Shown: positions 1 through 63,437 of the stretch, one piece after another | Numbering within the stretch: position 1 is the stretch's first letter | Layout: each line of letters begins with the position of its first letter | From: Amphibalanus amphitrite | Lineage: Eukaryota; Arthropoda; Thecostraca; Balanomorpha; Balanidae | Direction of reading: 5' to 3' | NCBI RefSeq assembly: GCF_019059575.1 | Contig: NW_024881980.1 | Location: forward strand, 248,001-312,000 | Length of the DNA stretch: 64,000 nt | Program-made: the position numbers and the translations under genes | Notes under the pieces: model-generated | Database searches by the model: none | Seen by the model: only the letters and a program-made list of their open reading frames with translations | Told to the model about the DNA's origin: nothing

Positions 1-881
1 GCCGGCACAGGGGGGGGGGGGCCTAAGGTTTTTCGCGAATAACTCGCGTAAAAAGCGGCCGATCGCGACGAAACTTTAAGTACCCTCGCATTGATCAATT
101 CTACACCTACCCTAAAAAATTTCATGACCCTGACCCAAATGACCTTGGACCTGTGACCTCTTTTCCGAGACCATGTTTGGCCGGAATCGCTATTCGGCGT
201 ATGTCGGCTCGCATTAGCCGCGCGTTTGCAAGCTTTTCGTGGTTTCAAACGTTCAAACATGTGATTTGCTGTTGCTCCCATACATTAGGGTGGGTTTCAA
301 GGTCACCTGAAGGTCAGGTCAGGTCATTGACCTTTGGTGACCTCGGGTGACCTCGGTTCACTTTTTCGAGTTTTACATGTTTCTAGGCTAGTTTTTGGAG
401 CTGAATTCGAATTTAGCAACCATTTGAACATTTACGAAGTAGTTTTGGTGCCTTCGTAACATGTTACGAAGCTGTCAGAGGCGGTTGACACGTATTACGA
501 ATACCCGTCACAACCCCTACCGGTTGACCTGACCTGACCTGACCCGACCTGGTCTAAATGCTTAAAGACATCATCTCTGATCAAAACTAACACGATATTC
601 GTGATCAGCAAGCACCCCGGAAAACCACATAGCAGCCACACTTTACGACTTTCTAACAGGTCCCGATTTTCCCGGTTTTCGGGTCATTGACCTGACCTGG
701 AAGGTCACCCGATGAACTAGGACCTTAAAATTGGGTATCATTGGGTTCCTCTCGTGACGGGCAACACGCTCGTTTTTTTTCCGCGAAGCTCTAGCTCGAT
801 CAGGGGCCAAACGCGAGGGGGGGTCGTACCAACCCCCCCTCGTGCCGTCGAAGGACACAAAATGGCCTGTGCCGGCGAGGG
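1..881 (-). mobile_element. TTAA-flanked G/C-hairpin element, copy 1 (cut by window edge)
   Basis: The right end reads GTGCCGGCGAGGG followed by TTAA at 882-885. The left end begins inside the terminal sequence (GCCGGCACAGGGG). The interior matches the copy at 51786-53129 in reverse complement over most of its length. It has a G-run/C-run hairpin near 819-840 and many TGACCT hexamers. No transposase ORF is present. Confidence 0.85.
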
Positions 882-885
882 TTAA

Positions 886-2334: not shown

Positions 2335-13423
<11,089 letters not shown>

Positions 13424-14271: not shown

Positions 14272-14275
14272 TTAA

Positions 14276-15461
14276 CCCGCGCCCTGCTGGGGGGGTGTTT
14301 GAACACCCCCCCTTGTGGTTTTTCGCGAATATCTCAAAAACGGCGGCGCGGAGCGCCGCCGTTTTTGGTACACCTTATCATACATCAATTCTACACATGT
14401 TGTGAAAATTTCAGACCAAGGTCATTCAAGGTCAGGTCACCAGGTCACTCGAAGTGACCTCACCTCATAAAAAGTTTCAATGTCTGTCATAGCTACACCG
14501 AGTGACCGATCGCTTTGAAACTTTCAGCGATTGCTAAGAGCATTAGCATGTACAAAATGTATATCTCAGAATTTTGATATCGATGACCTAAGGTCAGGTC
14601 AATTTTGCGACCTCACCATTATAAGTCAATGGGAGAAAATTGAAATGCGCCTGTTTTGGACGAAAGACATTATAAACACTCCCAAACACTGAATTACAAG
14701 TGGTTTAGACACACTGAACATGAAAATGGTGTCTGTGACCCCTGTTTATGCCCTGAGGTCATCTTAGGTCACGAATGGTATCTAACAGTTTTTCGCAAAT
14801 AACTTTTGATAGAGGCATGCTAGAGCGATGAAAACGCCTTAGATGTGTTCAGCTCGACGATACGGATCGACTGATATGCAACATGACCCTTTCCGGTCAG
14901 GTCATGACCTTGACCTGAGGTCAAATTTTCAAGTTGACCTTTCAAGGTCAAATTATAGTTCGTTCGATGCGTCTTGACGAGAGGAACACGATGCCGGTAA
15001 AAGTAAGCTCGTACAATGCTTGGGTCAAAAGTTATTGCAGAAAAACTGTTTCCGAAAAAATCGGCTATTTTTGCAGTTTTTGCCCCCTGCAGGCAAAACC
15101 GTTGACGTTAGGTCAAATCTGAGAAAATTACTCAGAAAGGGCGTTAATAGGGCTATCGAATGCGCTTTTCCGCGGCGCTGTAGCTCTATTGGTTCCCGAG
15201 TTATGCGTTGGCTTCTTGGAAATTTTCGACATTCGACCTGGAAATCGGCGAAAATTTGCCTTCAATGACCTCTGGTGACCTGACCTTTGACCTGACCGAA
15301 AAATTGACCGAAGTGATTTCCTCATTATTTTTGACGCTCTTTCGAACGCCGCCTTCCGCGTATCGCTACGTGGCCCAGGAGCCGAGTTAGAAGGGGGGTG
15401 TTCAAACACCCCCCCCCCCCCAGCAGGGCGTGGAAATCCAGGACCCCCAGCCGGGCGCGGG
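14276..15461. mobile_element. TTAA-flanked G/C-hairpin element, copy 3
   Basis: TTAA lies at 14272-14275 and 15462-15465. The ends are CCCGCGCCC and GGGCGCGGG. The hairpins are G-run/TGTTTGAACA/C-run at the left and G-run/TGTTCAAACA/C-run at the right. The interior has many AGGTCA hexamers. Confidence 0.85.
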
Positions 15462-16667
15462 TTAACGTGTTAGCTCATTTCCTTATTTTATCGACACAAA
15501 TTTATTCCTTGGAATTTCTTTTAACGAGTCCTTAGTGATAAATCGTAGTTCTTTACGGTTCTTTGGTGCCTCTTTACGAGCCATCGAAGAAACCAGGCCG
15601 CACTGGGACCCACTACCTCACCGGCATCCTCGGCCACGGGCTAGCGCTCAATCGGTGGGTTTCATCATACTGACAGGGTTTATAACGAAAAACGAGATCA
15701 AACACTTAGGAGGTATTTCGTTGGCGTGATAATAAGAAATTGTCCTTTGCATAATGCATGTCCTGACTCCTGATAAGGTCTGGCTACACTATGCGTTTTC
15801 TGCGTGCGTTTTTTTTTGCGAGTTTGCGTGTTTTGCGCAGCGTAATATCGTTCTTAAAAAAACAGTTATTATTAATATAACTTCTTTAATATTTATATTA
15901 AAATTAATACAACGCTTATATTCACTAAAAGTTTATATGAAAAACATATAACAAAAACGTTATGTCCAGGGGTGCGGAGCCGGAGCCGGAGCTGGAGCCG
16001 GAGCCGCTGGAGCCGACATATTTTGTCCGGAGCCGGAGCCGGAGCCGTGAAACAATATAGCCCGGAGCCGGAGCAGGAGCCGTCAGAAAAGGCGGCAACT
16101 CCGGCTCCTTTTTTAAGAGGAAAATTATTGACATAGTTCGGTTTGACAGTACAAGGCAGTAAAACGTTTGGTATTCAAAATAGCCTTGTTATGCAAGTAC
16201 AGAAGCAACTTGACTTGAACCAATCCCTTCATCTTTTTTTCTTCCAGCAGTATTTATTTGTATAGACCCAGTAAACATGCCGACGTCGGCCCGACGTCGG
16301 CCGACGTCGGGGTGACGTCGGCATCTCGGCATCGGCATGCCGACGTCGGCCCGACGTCGGTCCAACCTCGGCACGACGTCGGCTGGATGTCGGATATGCC
16401 CGCAGCCCGCATGTACCGACGTCCAGCCGAGGTCCAGCCGACGTCGGGCCGACGTCGGACCGAGATCAATTGCTGGGGTCCAGCCGACGTCGGGCCGACG
16501 TCGGACCGAGATCAATTGCTGGGGTCCAGCCGACGTCGGGCCGACGTCGGGGCGACGTCGGACCGACATCGGCCGCTGTTTTGACCGTTAAAATAATATA
16601 AAATGCATGTTTTATGTTTCATAAAGAGCTTCTGTATTCAAAATATCCTCAGGAAACTCAAATCTTC

Positions 16668-33709: not shown

Positions 33710-48158
<14,449 letters not shown>

Positions 48159-51781: not shown

Positions 51782-51785
51782 TTAA

Positions 51786-53129
51786 CCCTCGCCGGCACAG
51801 GCCATTTTACGTCCTTCGACGGCACAAGGGGGGGGGGGTACGACCCCCCCCCCCTCGCGTTTGGCCCATGATCGAGCTAGAGCTTCGCGGAAAAAACGAG
51901 CGTGTTGCCCGTCACGAGAGGAAGCCGACGATACCCAATTTTAAGGTCCTAGGTCATCGGGTGACCTTCCAGGTCAGGTCAATGACCCGAAAACCGGGAA
52001 AATCGGGACCTGTTAGAAAGTCGTTAAGTGTGGCTGCTATGTCAATGTGGTTTTCCGGGGTGCTGATCACGAATATCGTGTTAGTTTTGATCAGAGATGA
52101 TGTCTTTAAGCATTTAGACCAGGTCGGGTCAGGTCAGGTCAGGTCAACCGGTAGGGGTTGTGACGGGTATTCGTAATACGTGTCAACCGCCTCTGACAGC
52201 TTCGTAACATGTTACGAAGGCACCAAAACTACTTCGTAAATGTTCAAATGGTTGCTAAATTCGAATTCAGCTCCAAAAACTAGCCTAGAAATATGTAAAA
52301 CTCGAAAAAGTGAACCGAGGTCACCCGAGGTCACCAAAGGTCAATGACCTGACCTGACCTTCAGGTGACCTTGGCAGTTGCTGGAAATGAGGCCGCTTTC
52401 TGGTCCCGGCGTTTTATTCTCCTCGCGGGTTAATCCCGTCCAGCGTTTAGCCTTTCGGGACCCACTAGGGTCGCGGTTGTTTTCGCCGCTCGCCCCAGTC
52501 GAGATGCAAAGTTAATAGTCACACGAAGCTTATTTAGGGCCAGCCAAACCAGTCTAGTCTGGAGTTACTGTTAAATGTATGCATATAGATGAAAGAAAAA
52601 GGCTTTGTAGAATCGATTAATTTCGAAGTCGTATATTCAGAGGCCCCAAATAAACTTCGTGCGACTATCAACTTTGCATCTCGAATGGGCCGGGCGGCGA
52701 AAACAACCGCGGCTCTGAGAGGGTCCCGAAAGGCTAAGCGCTAGACGGGGCTAACTCACCCGGAGAATAAAACGCCGGGACCAGAAAGCGGCCTCATTTC
52801 CAGCACTGCTTGACACTCACCCTAATGTATGGGAGCAACATCAAATCACATGTTTGAACGATTGAAACCACGAAAAGCTTGCAAACGCGCGGCTAATGCG
52901 AGCCGACATACGCCGAATCGCGATTCCGGCCAAACATGGTCTCGGAAAAGAGGTCACAGGTCAAAGATCATTTGGGTCAGGGTCATGAAATTTTCAGGGT
53001 AGGTGCAAAATTGATCAATGCGAGGGTACTGAAAGTTTCGTCGCGATCGGCCGCTTTTTACGCGAGTTATTCGCGAAAAACCTTAGGTGGGGGGGGGGGT
53101 TGCATCAACCCCCCCTGTGCCGGCGAGGG
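51786..53129 (+). mobile_element. TTAA-flanked G/C-hairpin element, copy 7 (most complete pattern)
   Basis: TTAA lies at 51782-51785 and 53130-53133. The ends are CCCTCGCCGGCACAGG and CCTGTGCCGGCGAGGG. The left hairpin is G-run/TACGA/C-run near 51829-51854 and the right is G-run/TTGCATCAA/C-run near 53089-53115. Tandem GGTCA occurs at about 52122-52146. A foldback MITE is nested at 52374-52809. Without it the element is about 910 bp. Confidence 0.9.
52374..52809. mobile_element. 436-bp foldback MITE nested in copy 7
   Basis: Inverted arms of about 175 bp (GCAGTTGCTGGAAATGAGG / CCTCATTTCCAGCACTGC) are flanked by TTG at 52371-52373 and 52810-52812. The copy at 1-881 lacks it, which gives the empty site. 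Confidence 0.85.
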
Positions 53130-53133
53130 TTAA

Positions 53134-54485: not shown

Positions 54486-55598
54486 TGGTGGGATTGTGTT
54501 CGGTGGGAGTATGTTTTCCCGGTCGGTGGGAGTGTCAGTCGGGTGGGAGAGTTTGACCGTCCCATAGGCGTAGGAACGTTTTCGAAAGTGGGGGGGCCAG
54601 GCTCCCACCCAGCTAACAGGAAACGTTACTACAACGTTGTCACAACGTCGTGTTTCGGTAAGTTGCGAAATTACGTTTTAATTACGTTGTAGCAACGTTC
54701 TGAACGTTGTGAAGCCATGGTTTGGTCCGAAAGTTGTGGTAAAACGTTGTGACAACGTTTAATTGGTACGTTGCAGCAACCGCGCACATGCAATATTATA
54801 TTTTGATAATGCATGGTGACATATATGACCATATAATGCATTTCCTTTGACTTTCAATGCGCATTTTCAGTTTTCATCATTAAAGTTGACATGTTTTAAC
54901 ACTTGGACTGTTCCCGTTGTCAGCTGGTGGTCGCCAACACGTTGTTAAAACGGTTTTTCACAACCTTGACATTAAAGGTACTCAGGGTAACTTTTAAAGG
55001 GGGAAAGGGGAATTTCCCCCCTTCGAAAATTCCGCTCCCCCTTTCAAATTGTGCGTGAACGGCTAGGGAGGGAAGGGGGAATTTCCCCCTTTCAAATTTA
55101 TTTTTGAGCCCATTTTCAATCAGTTCGCTACTCAGATTCTATAATCATCGTTGATCAGACTCTAGTCATCAATCAACGTTGCTGGCGCTTAGATAATTTT
55201 CAATTTGAGGTTCCCTCCAACCATTTTACGTTCAGTGCAGCGGTAACTCCAGATTTGACCCGATACCGATCGGATGGTCGGTGGGACCGTCTCTTGTCTT
55301 GTCTCTTCCGTCTCTTCGCAATCACTGACATATTGCTACAGGCGTCGGCGTAGAAACCGGCGGGGGACGGGGGTCATGACCTCTCCAAACCAAGGGTCTT
55401 CCTTCGAACCAGGGTCCTTCAATCGGTCTTGGCCTAGCAAACATAGTCACGTGTTAACCTCTCTCTATTTAGAAAGGCGCTACTTGATGTTTGGCCGGGG
55501 TAGTAGGTTGATACTACTGATTGACATTTGCAAGGGCGCAGTCGAGTTGGGACCTCCCCCGCCCCATACCGCTAAGATGGGCTTTCTCTCTATCTCTC

Positions 55599-56539: not shown

Positions 56540-57639
56540 AAGAAGTGAACTTCCACCAGTTCTGGCGTGCTAGCGGCTAGCGCTAGAGCCGGTAGAACCC
56601 AATTCCGTCCCACGCCCCCATGGGGGCGCCCCTGGGCCCCATGCCCCATCACCGATGCCGCCGCTGTCGTTTTTTTTTTGTAAATTGACCTGTGATGTAT
56701 TGAAATATACACTTCTTACATGCCTTTTTTACAAGTCTAGAGAACGGGAAGAGAGCGTCGGAAACACATTCTGAGTATGTTGCGAACACGTTGAGAGGAC
56801 GTTGCGAAAATGTTTGGACGTTTACTCAGGGTCGCAGGGACGGCAATACGAAGTAGCGACAACGTGGTGCGCACGTGATAAAAACGTCGCAGAGACGTTG
56901 CCAAAGCGTTCTATACTCCTTGTAGTCACGTTGCGGAAACGTGGTGACAACGTTCCAGAAACACTGTTGGCACGTTACAGAAAACATTTCATAACGTTGG
57001 CGGGACGTTATAAGAACGGTTTTGGGACGTCACGGCCACGTTACAGAAACGTTGTGATGACATTCAAATGCATGGTCGGATGACGTTGTCACGCCGTTGT
57101 CTGGAGTCTACAAAATTACGTTGTCACAACGATAAATCGGAACGTTGTGGTAACCATTTGACAACGTTTAAACGACGTTGTAACAACGGCAAATTGTTAG
57201 CTGGGCAGAGGTCTAAAACCTAACCCACCCCCAAAATCCAATTTCTCCTCGGATTTCGGCCACTTTGTTTTCGCAAACATGCTCAGAGGTAAAAAAAATC
57301 GAGACAAAACCAAAAATAAAAGTAGTTAAATTTCAGGGAGAGTCCTGTCCATAAACTCAAACTGATTGACGCGTTCCCCTGTCCTCCGCAGCCGTTGGCA
57401 CCCATGCAAATTCCAGAGGCATCCAGCAGCTTTTTCATTAAGAGCAAGCGTGAAATGTGCAAAGCGAGTCTTTTCAATATACCTATAAAAATCAGCATGA
57501 ACGGCCCAGCTAGGCTCAGCCAGGCCTGTAACGTTTTTAAGAGGTTTTATATTAGCGACCACTGCAACTGGGCTGATTGACTGTCAGAGGCCGGTGTGGG
57601 ACTTTTAGAGGCCGGTCTGGGCCCTCAGAGGCCGTTTAA

Positions 57640-58612
57640 CACTCGCCGGCCCGGACCTATAAGTTTTCTACATACGCGCCGGCCGAGGGGGCGGGGAGCA
57701 GGTACGACCCCCCTCGCCATTTTGCCCCAGGTGGAGCTAGCGCGTCGCGGAAAAAACGAGCGTGTGCGCCGTTACGAGACGCAGAGATCGATACCCGATT
57801 TTAAGGTCCTAGGTCAACCGTTGACCTAAGGTCAAGTCAAGTGCCTCAAGGCACAGTTCCATTTTTGGTGAATAACTTCGCAAAAAAACAGCCACAGAGC
57901 CGCGATTTTGCCAGCATCGTGTTAGCCTCTCTCAGGCGCGTCGAATGATATACTTTTTGTTTGGGTGAGGTAAACTTAGAGTGTTGACCTCGGGTCACGG
58001 TCAGGTCAGCGCCCCCAGGTCACGAAATTGGTCGAATGAGGTCATGTCTCATATCCTTCGATTCGGAAGGTCTTCCTGAGTCCATTGGTGGCTTTCCCGA
58101 CTCGCTAGCTCAATTTGATCGGTAGTTATTGACGAAAAACTAATATGACCCTTATAACGTCATAAATGACGTCGCGCAAGGTCAACATTGCAAAAGTGAC
58201 GCATCGAACCTTGCAAGGAGTGCATGAAATCACGATTCGGTGTGCTTGAGATAGTTGGAGATCGTTCCCGGCGCCAGAAAAAGTTTTCAGTTTATCCCCA
58301 TTGACTTATACCTAATGGTGAGGTCACGAAAATGACCTGACCTCATATGACCTTAAGACAATCCGAGATGTACAAGTTGTGGAGACTTCTAATGGATACT
58401 AGGTCCTGCAAGGTTCATTTCCCTGTGAAATCTCCTCTGGCAGTGAGGGCGTTGCGAAGTTGCGACATCTGAAGACCGTGCAGAGGTTCACTTATCAGTG
58501 ACCTGATCTGACCCGAAAATGCGGTTGGTGTCAAAAGATCCGGCTTGATTCAAAGGTCAGGTATGCCAAGCTTCAGCTCTCTATCGCCGGCGTGTTCGGA
58601 GCTATCGCGAAA

Positions 58613-58667
<55 letters not shown>

Positions 58668-58703
58668 AGGGGCGGCACCCCCCCCCCCCCCGGCCGGCGA
58701 GGG
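57640..58703. mobile_element. TTAA-flanked G/C-hairpin element, copy 8
   Basis: TTAA lies at 57636-57639 and 58704-58707. The ends are CACTCGCCGGCC (first base changed) and CCGGCCGGCGAGGG. A (TA)n tract sits near the right end. AGGTCA hexamers fill 57805-58350. Confidence 0.8.
58614..58664. repeat. (TA)n microsatellite
   Basis: Pure TA, just inside the right hairpin of TTAA copy 8. Confidence 0.95.
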
Positions 58704-60186
58704 TTAAAGCCCTCAGAGACCAGTACAGGGCCTGCAAAGAGCAGTTTGAGACTTGGGCCATCAGAGGCTAATGTGGGTCCTTACAGGCCAGCATGGGCCC
58801 TCAGAGGTCAGTGTGGGACCCTAAAATGCCGGCATGGGCCGGCGTTGGACCCCAGAGGCCAGCAGAAGGCCCTCAAAACCAAGATGGGCCTCTGAGGCCA
58901 GCATCGGTCTTCAGAATCCAGTGCAAGGCCCTCAGAGGCTAATGTGGGTCCTTACAGGCCAGCATGGGCCGTTAGAGGTCAGTGTGGGACCGTAACAGAC
59001 CGGCATGGGCCGGCGTTGGACCCCTAAGGCCAAGATGGACCCTCAGAGGCCGATGCAGACCCTTAGAGGCCGGCATCGGGTCTCCAGAATTCAGTGCGGG
59101 GCCCTCAGAGGCACCTAAAGGCTAGTCTTGAGACCCCAGAGACAGAAATGAGGCCACCAGAGGCCGGTGTGAGGCCCTCAGACGTCGGCTGGGCCCTTGA
59201 GGCCGGTTTAGGGGCCCTCAAATGCCAGTGGAGGACCCTCAGAGGTCAATGTGGGTTCTCTGAGGTCAATGTGGGCGCTTGACCGCCATTGAAGGGCCCT
59301 CCGAGATCAGTGTAGGACCCTCAAAGACTGGTTTGGAAGCTGTTAATAGCTGGCGTGGGATTCTTGAGCCTCGTGACAATCGAATAAGTGCCAGAGCCCC
59401 ATACGCCCATGGGGGCCCATTGTTTGTTTGGGGGGGGGGGCAAATAGAGGGGCAGATACAGACATTGCTAGCCCCCAGCCTGTTTGAACCGAGGCGGGGG
59501 CACGGTCACCCTGGCCCCCAGCTAGTACGCCTTTGACGAACTATGCCAACCCCATGAAGCAGATCTGGTCAAGCGTTGGTCGTTTGTATACGCATTCTCC
59601 TGCACCGTGCTAGTATTGTCTTTATACCTTTTCAGTGCTCGCTGTCCCGTATATCGTAATCAACAAAATGCTGCGGCACCAGGACTCACAGTCTTGTCTC
59701 TGATATGGTTTTCTTCATTGAGTGAAGGAAATTGCGGTCAATAACGCTGTAGAAACAAAAGGGAATCTTCACTAAAGGGCAAGCTGAATAGTTGTCAAGT
59801 TCTGGTGTTTAGGGTACCGGGTGGTAGGTACAGATAGACACTTAAGTCAGCAAAAAGTGGGGGGGGGCCAGTTAACATTGCTGGCCCCCCCACCTCCGAA
59901 AGTGGGGGGGCCATGGCCCCCCCGGCCCCCCCTGTTCCTACGCCTATGGCACCGTCCGGTGGTAGGGACCGTCCGGCCGTCCGGTGAGAGTGACTGCCCG
60001 GTGGGAGTGGTCGGCCGGTGGGAGTGTGTTTTACCGTCCGGTGGGAGTGTGTTTTTGTGGTGGGAGAGTCCGATGGGAGTATTGTTGCCGTCCGATGGAG
60101 GTGTTGCTGTCGTCCGGTGGGAGTGGCGTCCGGTGGGAATGTCCTGGTCCCTGCAGTGGGAGTGGCGTCCGGTGGGTACCGGTAAT

Positions 60187-61898: not shown

Positions 61899-61964
61899 AG
61901 TGGCGGATCCAAGGGGGGGGGGGGGTCACATGGGTCATGGCCCCCCTTGAGGCCCGGGGGCCCA

Positions 61965-63390
61965 AAGACCTGCCAGGGGCACCACCGGCCTATCAGGGGT
62001 ATCACAGTCCTGACAGGGGCACCACAGGACCGCCAGGGGCACCACAGGCCTAGCAGGGACACCACGGGCCTGGTGCCCCTGGGCCCTGACAGGACTGTAA
62101 CGCCCCTGACAAGCCTGAAGTGTCCCCGGCAGGCACGTGGTGCCCCTGACAGGCCTGAGGCGCCCCTGCAAGGCCGGTGGTGCCCCTGGCAGGCCTGTGG
62201 TGTCCATGGCAGGCCTGTGGTGCCCTTGCTAGGCCTCTGGTGCCCCTGACAGGCTTGTAATGCCCCTGGAAGGACTGTGGTGCCCCTGGGCTCTGACAAG
62301 CCTGAGGTGCCCCTGACAGGCCAGTGGTGCCCTTGCTAGGCCTGTGGTGCCCCTGGCAGGCCTCTGGTGCCCCTGACAGGCTTGCGGTGCCCTTGGAAGG
62401 ACTGTGGTGTCCCTGGGCCCTGACAAGCCTGAGGTGCCCCTGACAGGCCCGTGGTGCCCTTGTTAGGCCTGTGGTGCCCCTGGCAGGCCTCTGGTGCCCT
62501 TGCTAGGTCGCTGGTGCCCATGGCAGACCTCTGGTGCCCTTGCTAGGCCGCTGGTACCCCTGCGCCCGGAGAGGACTGGTGCCCCTGAAAAGTCTGAAGT
62601 GCCCCTCGGCAGGCCCGTGGTGCCCCTGACAGGCCCAAGGTGCCCCTGCGAGGCCGGTGGTGCCCCTGGCAGACCTCTGGTGCCCCTGACAGACCTCTGG
62701 TGCCCCTGGCAGGTCTGTGGTGCCCCTGGCAGGTCTGTGGCGCCCCTGGCAGACCTGTGTTGACTGGTGCCCCTGCTAGGGCGCTGGTGCCCCTCACAGA
62801 CCTGTGGTGCCCCTGGGCCTTGACAAGCCTGAGATGCTTGGCTATGACAGGCTCGTGGTGCCCCTGATAGACCAGTGGTGCCCTTGCTAGGCCTGTAGTG
62901 CCCCTGGCAGGCCTCTGGTGCCCCTGCTACCCCTGCGCCCGGAGAGGACTATGGTGCCCCTGAAAAGCCTGAAGTGCCTCTCGACAGGCCCGTGGTGCCC
63001 CTGGGCCCTGACAGGCCCAAGTTACCCCTGCGAGGTCGGTGGTGCTCCTGGCAGGCCTCTGGTGCCCCTGGCAGGTCTGTGGTGCCCCTGGCAGGCCTGT
63101 GTTGACTGGTGCCCCTGCTAGGCCGCTGGTGCCCCTCACAGGCCTGCGGTGCCCCTGGAAGGACTGTGGTGCCCCTGCCCCTAGGGGTGCTCATGGACCC
63201 AACAGGCCCGTTGAGCCCCTGACAGGCCTGTCGTGTATACTTGCTAGACCTGTGGTGCCCCTGCTTCCTGGCAGGCCTGTGGTGCCCCTGGCGGGCCTGT
63301 GGCGCCCCTACAAGGCCGTAGGTGCCCCTGACAGATTTGTGGCGTCCCTGGAAGGACTTTGGTGCCCCTGACAAGCCTGAAGTGTCAAGG
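61965..63390. repeat. 20-bp GC-rich minisatellite with an orientation switch
   Basis: Units of TGGTGCCCCTGGCAGGCCTG, with a 27-bp variant containing GGGCCCTGACAAG, fill about 1.3 kb. The first few units (61965-62068) are in the opposite orientation. Long open frames on both strands are by-products. Confidence 0.9.
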
Positions 63391-63437
63391 ACAGACCCTT
63401 TAGACGCCAGGGTCAAGTTCGTCGGACTGACAACGAT

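Follow-up and report, generated by a model that had tools for sequence, protein, structure and literature searches.

The closest described system is piggyBac of Trichoplusia ni (T. ni), the two ends of which are unequal. According to the parts of its structural description considered here, the ends are LE35 and RE63, and RE contains an insertion and a repeat, RE bp 34-63 matching LE bp 7-35; a dimer of CRDs, the C-terminal zinc domains of the transposase, binds a 19-bp palindrome (bp 17-33, dyad near bp 25), lengthening of RE by five bp halves the activity, and the proposed assembly is a tetramer whose inner dimer sits on RE (PMC7351741). The authors of the structure call the lopsided piggyBac ends puzzling and enigmatic (PMC7351741). 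Asymmetric sub-terminal repeats are already known in both piggyBac and CsuPLE1.1, as the cited part of the latter's description states (PMC4273485). The typical piggyBac TIR, in the relevant part of another report, is 12-19 bp long and starts with CC[C/T]T (PMC2872659); two of the families described below start with CCCG.

The DNA analysed here, a 64-kb stretch of the Amphibalanus amphitrite genome referred to as the window, carries eight elements which, judged by their sequence, are very probably MITE-like, non-autonomous members of piggyBac, of the type and with the end layout known from T. ni. All eight TTAA-flanked elements listed in the original prediction exist, with G-run/C-run dyads near their ends. 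In the short end the TIR, about 16 bp long in the window, is followed directly by the dyad; in the long end a spacer and a repeat of the inner TIR (the duplicate in the list below) come between this TIR and the dyad. The window shows 15 element ends, the short end of A1 being cut off by the window start. The elements, together with an insert in one of them, are the following:

1..885, minus strand: A1 (family A); truncated at its short end by the window start, with a decayed dyad there; the long end lies at 885 and has its dyad at 817-839; duplicate offset 27; about 95% alike to 51782-53133.
7045..8236, plus strand: C1 (family C); short end 7045, dyad 7062-7094 with the core CAGAATCTG; long end 8236, dyad 8159-8192; duplicate offset 27.
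14272..15465, plus strand: D1 (family D); short dyad 14289-14312, long dyad 15393-15421, the core at either end being TGTTTGAACA; duplicate offset 27.
37751..38663, plus strand: B1 (family B); short dyad 37770-37800, long dyad 38586-38617; duplicate offset 27.
42838..44023, plus strand: C2 (family C); left flank TTTA; short dyad 42855-42881 with the core CTATTTATAG; long end decayed, with a C-run at 43967-43977; duplicate offset 26.
44114..45030, minus strand: B2 (family B); long dyad 44160-44186, short dyad 44987-45011; duplicate offset 27.
51782..53133, minus strand: A2, the element first reported; long end 51782, inner TIR repeated at +27, dyad 51828-51854; short end 53133, dyad 53089-53115.
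52374..52808, no strand assigned: foldback insert nested in A2, about 435 bp (query bases 593-1027 of the 1344-bp copy), with long inverted arms CTGGAAATGAGGCCGCTTTCTGGTCCCGGCG...
57636..58707, minus strand: A3, distantly related to family A; dyad of the long end 57687-57713; short end 58707; duplicate at offset 33, either decayed or divergent.

TTAA adjoins 14 of the 15 visible ends, so the TTAA flanks claimed for all of them fail only at the left end of 42842-44019, which reads TTTA. Within the window a 20-base end motif has 13 matches at no more than two mismatches vs 0.02 expected from 100 shuffles, and G5+...C5+ dyads number 18, compared with 0.73 on average and never more than 2 over 30 dinucleotide shuffles. 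Thirteen of these dyads lie inside elements beside an end and five lie outside, while A1 and A3 at their short ends and C2 at its long end have dyads that are decayed or were missed by the G5/C5 scan. Members of the same family are alike (about 95% for A1/A2, 91% for B1/B2), their flanks are unrelated and the homology ends at TTAA, as is expected of insertions. The eight copies had been taken for one multi-copy family; they do have a layout in common, and it is mostly in layout that they are alike, their sequences falling into four or five families (A, B, C, D). Family A comprises 1-881 and 51786-53129, with 57640-58703 as a distant third member. The TIR starts with CCCT in families A and B (CACT at one A3 end) and with CCCG in C and D. 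None of the eight elements contains an ORF of at least 150 aa, ten long ORFs of the window gave no Pfam match above the cut-off, and no Rfam match in the window reached the gathering score.

Several other structures lie in the same window. Among the matches listed for the foldback insert of A2, none covers it except A2 itself and its own inverted arms. An inverted-repeat pair at 45218-46142, of about 330 bp each and 96% alike, is located some 190 bp from B2. Two GGGGGAATTTCCCCC-type palindromes are found within 90 bp at 54999-55089, and further G-run/C-run dyads at 59859-59932 and 61913-61946, all outside the eight elements; the dyad at 61913 comes after AGTGGCGGATCCAAGGGGG and possibly marks the end of another DNA transposon type. 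A large degenerate repeat array, the translation of which gives GAPQACQGHH-like units, occupies 61950-63400.

The ends had been described as mirror images, which they are not, because the long end adds the spacer and the second inner-TIR copy. Measured from the tip, TTAA not counted, the dyad starts at 13-15 bp in six short ends, at 40-42 bp in six long ends and at 47 bp in the long end of A3. The second copy of TIR bp 5-16 lies at offset 27 in six of the eight long ends (A1, C1, D1, B1, B2 and A2; 9-11 of 12 identities), at 26 in C2 and at 33 in A3. Short ends, used as a control, reach at most 8/12; the top score is that of B2, also at offset 27, and probably comes from its G-run. The offset of A3, this B2 score and the broken short dyad of A1 are among the points that speak against the main reading, others being the CCCG starts and, as described below, the incomplete pairing of the cores, the unequal TIRs and interrupted frame of H, the one-sided palindromes of L011 and L037 and the failure to find a transposase between ends of families A-D. 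The same step is found elsewhere in the genome. A search with a strict short-end pattern provided 30 loci, 20 of which could be paired with a second end; the offset is 27 in 12 of these copies, 26 in two, 25 in one and 36 in one, the remaining four comprising three in which an inner end flanked by TGTA was taken and one with no clear repeat. Seven further long ends from five families gave best offsets of 27, 27, 26, 28 and 27, the fourth of these being weak (7/12).

What is kept at these sites is their agreement within an element. TIR bp 9-16 differs among families yet matches across its three sites in the same element: 130 of 144 positions are identical vs a permuted mean of 77.8 (0 of 20000 permutations), in a test on six elements from which the near-identical siblings A1 and B1 were left out. 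Each element can be described as carrying three copies of the TIR core-domain site, one per outer TIR and one more 27 bp inward on the long end, together with a G/C-armed palindrome at either end when intact.

The end patterns were counted over the whole 807.5 Mb assembly, with reversed patterns as controls. The strict short-end pattern has 11,745 matches on one strand and 11,696 on the other (control 0), the general short-end pattern 22,042 on the plus strand (control 4) and the long-end pattern 19,590 on the plus strand (control 0). The minus-strand counts of the latter two, 84,352 and 80,090, look inflated in our opinion, because long G-runs give several starts each. If the plus-strand counts are doubled and each element is taken as about 1 kb, the number of elements would be some 40,000 and their share of the assembly about 5%. 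The end pattern has no match in the viral_contigs collection and two in the genome_contigs collection, both without the dyad and taken as chance. That the G-runs and hairpins are artefacts of assembly or chance is an explanation of practically negligible probability: the homopolymer length does differ among copies, as such an error would have it, but the copies number thousands vs 0 to 4 for the reversed patterns. Moreover, when 48 short ends, defined by a G-run starting at bp 20 or before, were compared with 46 other ends, the run started at bp 14-16 in 47 of the former and at bp 40-45 in 44 of the latter.

The sequence between the G-run and the C-run is palindromic and family-specific. The 26 distinct cores, taken from 47 rows among which are decayed and badly parsed ones, have 117 mirrored positions, of which 69 pair (59%) vs a shuffled mean of 31.8 (0 of 20000). 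All 11 short ends of the D-type TIR with a G5/C5 dyad have the core TGTTTGAACA, and their G-runs range from 6 to 15. In short ends with 5-8 G the centre of the palindrome lies at a median of bp 25.5 (range 21-29, n=21), and further in where the runs are longer. Since the core is constant and the run length loose, the dyad is best read as a putative protein-binding palindrome with slipping arms, and the G-run/C-run "hairpins" as what are most likely paired landing sites for the mobilising transposase. The original prediction had instead suggested recognition of the ends through quadruplexes and i-motifs, and had held the hairpin to be foreign to piggyBac. Recognition through non-B DNA, be it a G-quadruplex/i-motif or an extruded hairpin at each end, appears very unlikely. 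Pure G-runs of up to 17 and C-runs do occur near both ends, and the copies with long runs could in principle fold; but 21 of the 48 short ends have only 5-8 G, and both symmetry and family specificity sit in the non-G core, which stays fixed as the run changes. In addition, the same place in T. ni piggyBac is a known duplex CRD site, as its structural description has it (PMC7351741). The palindrome as such is therefore not foreign to piggyBac, and it is in the G/C homopolymer arms that the present one differs. No report of G/C-armed dyads at piggyBac or other transposon ends was seen among the open papers listed on this subject.

The original prediction had pointed to TTAA and the CCC starts as piggyBac traits and proposed a search for a larger relative with the same ends and a transposase. 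Larger relatives with ends of this kind exist, and they encode DDD transposases of the piggyBac class. A search of the genome with PF13843 listed 116 piggyBac matches, 30 of which were taken as loci; 18 of the 30 showed a TIR pair of other types, and in three elements, E, F and H, the transposase lies between G/C-palindrome ends:

L044:210-6182: E, with a frame of 683 aa, or 673 aa when counted from its first Met; holds a nested 1-kb MITE.
L076:533-5255: F, with a 666-aa frame.
L043:1055-5031: H, with a frame interrupted by one stop.

Another copy of F, in L077, is 99.95% alike across 4102 bp, but the final 621 bp of F (its short end) have no match there. A second copy of H extends across L078 and L079, 98.3-99.4% alike by segment besides an insert of about 836 bp; H is bordered by TTAA on either side, its flanks differ at the two loci, and its TIRs are two rather different sequences. 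In all three elements the short end is 5' of the ORF and the long end 3', and the TIR is repeated at offset 27, with 12/12 identities in E and 11/12 in both F and H. Among solved structures, their transposases match T. ni piggyBac 6x67 best, at 228, 196 and 255 bits for E, F and H, respectively (for H via a 500-aa part only), piggyBat scoring 69, 78 and 108 bits. The transposase P0001 matches PF13843 with an E value of 2e-64, and its Asp residues align with those of T. ni PB (DDD). The C-terminal tail CxxC-x4-C-x2-H-x(4-7)-CxxC is present, as in T. ni, in the transposases of E, F, H and L038.

The path from such a transposon to a MITE can be followed in family E, whose MITE (L043:5028-6206) corresponds to E bases 1-128 plus 4964-5973 at 89-91% likeness and, by its sequence, is a plain internal-deletion derivative of E. 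The window family D is about 67% alike to F across some 600 bp at the long end. No transposase was found between ends of families A-D in the loci examined, and it is through the sister families E, F and H that these are linked to transposases. Two further observations were made in this material. A single TTAA at L043:5028-5031 is common to H and the family E MITE, which stand back to back, and the contig C2644, probably mitochondrial, gave a COX1 match with ten read-through TGA codons.

Other piggyBac families are abundant in the same genome. In L024, L011 and L021, which represent the three of about six such families compared with solved structures, piggyBat stands ahead of piggyBac (99/41, 111/77 and 92/79 bits, the last pair being close), and most of the other piggyBac tails read, by eye, CxxC-x4-CxxC-x4-H or similar. 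L011 and L037 have a perfect or near-perfect non-G palindrome centred near bp 24.5, at one end only, the 27-bp repeat being absent. Two elements considered as autonomous partners, L030:7-3825 and L041:1869-6449, belong to these other families and are inserted into G/C-palindrome MITEs, L030 at a TTAA and L041 with a target duplication of ATAA; both were rejected as partners because they interrupt G/C-ended elements.

TTAA duplication is also a trait of Kolobok. That the eight elements belong to this or another TTAA superfamily, or are moved by the piggyBat-nearer transposases of the genome, is nevertheless a very remote prospect. The TTAA alone would suit the former, and for the latter there are the abundance of the other piggyBac families and their two copies nested within G/C-ended elements; both nested cases, however, are insertions into such an element, and the three transposases that do lie between such ends are nearest to T. 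ni piggyBac. Furthermore, ten other piggyBac elements of about six families have different TIRs, score no higher than 5/12 for a 26-28-bp repeat at those offsets and show no G/C dyad in any of their 20 ends.

The interiors of the elements have a feature of their own. AGGTCA, a nuclear-receptor half-site, and its complement TGACCT occur 155 times in the window, 125 of them inside the eight elements (14.3 vs 0.54 per kb, 26-fold), and form clusters in the interiors of all eight, e.g., at 14419-15288. In 12 MITEs of about as many families, with a cluster defined as at least two sites, the clusters are mostly spaced by about 165 bp: 24 of 33 spacings fall within 145-205 bp vs a null mean of 6.5 (0 of 5000), an interval picked after the data had been seen and misfitted by nine spacings. 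The ratio of AGGTCA to TGACCT is 49:22 in the short-end half and 16:103 in the long-end half, i.e., the sites mostly point inward. The first cluster lies about 180 bp from the long tip in 15 of 15 elements; its distance from the short tip is about 170 bp in the 10 elements used, C1, C2, L053 and H being without it there and L047 having been dropped from this measurement as its palindrome was not found. E and F also have AGGTCA sites in their non-coding parts, and H has fewer; the ORFs of E, F and H hold 1, 1 and 0. In six other piggyBac elements such sites are few (0 to 1.5 per kb).

Two simpler origins of this ladder were considered. A remnant of tandem repeats appears unlikely after self-comparison with the motif masked, in which 5 of 14 sequences retained a single direct self-match (E<1); one of these five is near the ladder step, in the 3' part of F (shift 173, E 3e-6), which does fit. 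Anchoring on the palindromes is unsupported, because the distance between cluster and palindrome differs between the ends (145 vs 124 bp). The step of about 165 bp is near nucleosome spacing, and no such ladder was seen among the open-licence PMC papers listed on this subject. It may be proposed, tentatively and with more doubt than confidence, that the interior is a working chromatin ladder, in which the AGGTCA clusters recruit a host DNA-binding protein between phased nucleosomes and keep the element compact or open, with its ends able to synapse, and which has been kept across families otherwise diverged; the obvious guess for the factor is a nuclear-receptor-like protein. If functional, the ladder would represent a transposon organising its own chromatin, and would have spread many AGGTCA sites through the genome.

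As to the ends, the simplest mechanism is that of T. ni piggyBac, with the G/C-armed palindromes as candidate CRD sites, because both the step and the position of the palindrome match. A transposase supplied by the larger relatives would place one catalytic dimer on the two tips, and its C-terminal cross-brace zinc domains would dimerise on a palindrome. A second, inner dimer would occupy the duplicated site and the palindrome at the long end, and the 27-bp step would set its phase relative to the first dimer; excision and TTAA-targeted insertion would then proceed as for piggyBac. The G- and C-runs would be palindrome arms that lengthen and shorten through slippage. Binding of the protein, its assembly into a tetramer and current mobility of the elements are what we infer by analogy with T. 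ni piggyBac. The genome in this respect provides many natural replicates, in which families with different TIRs and palindromes have kept one step of about 27 bp; its other piggyBac families lack the layout, and those looked at have another zinc-tail pattern. The link of end layout, tail domain and tetramer assembly is thus directly testable in this genome, which also supplies new ends and transposases of separable specificities.

Compared with the described systems, in each case on the basis of the cited part of the report, the coral CMITEs resemble the present elements in being piggyBac-type MITE families with differing TIRs and interior traits in common, and differ in being about 100 bp long, with a common 75-bp interior and no motif ladder described (PMC2872659). 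CsuPLE1.1 of Chilo suppressalis has TTAA, a 13-bp TIR and asymmetrically placed sub-terminal inverted repeats; it differs in that its repeats are of 25 bp, its transposase is nearest to PGBD3 and its description mentions no G/C dyad (PMC4273485). In piggyBat of Myotis lucifugus CRD dimers likewise bind palindromes and there are several sites per end, but the palindromes are on the left end only, the repeat step is 44 bp and the CRD fold is another one (PMC11707139, PMC13405395); E, F and H also match piggyBat less closely than they match T. ni piggyBac. T. ni piggyBac (IFP2) is alike in its TTAA, CCC start, short 5' and long 3' end, inner-TIR repeat step of about 27 bp, palindrome near bp 25 and zinc-tail pattern (PMC7351741). 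The barnacle elements are set apart from it by their G/C homopolymer arms, a core specific to each family and TIRs that differ past CCC (PMC7351741), as well as by pattern counts of tens of thousands of ends and by the AGGTCA clusters in their interiors.
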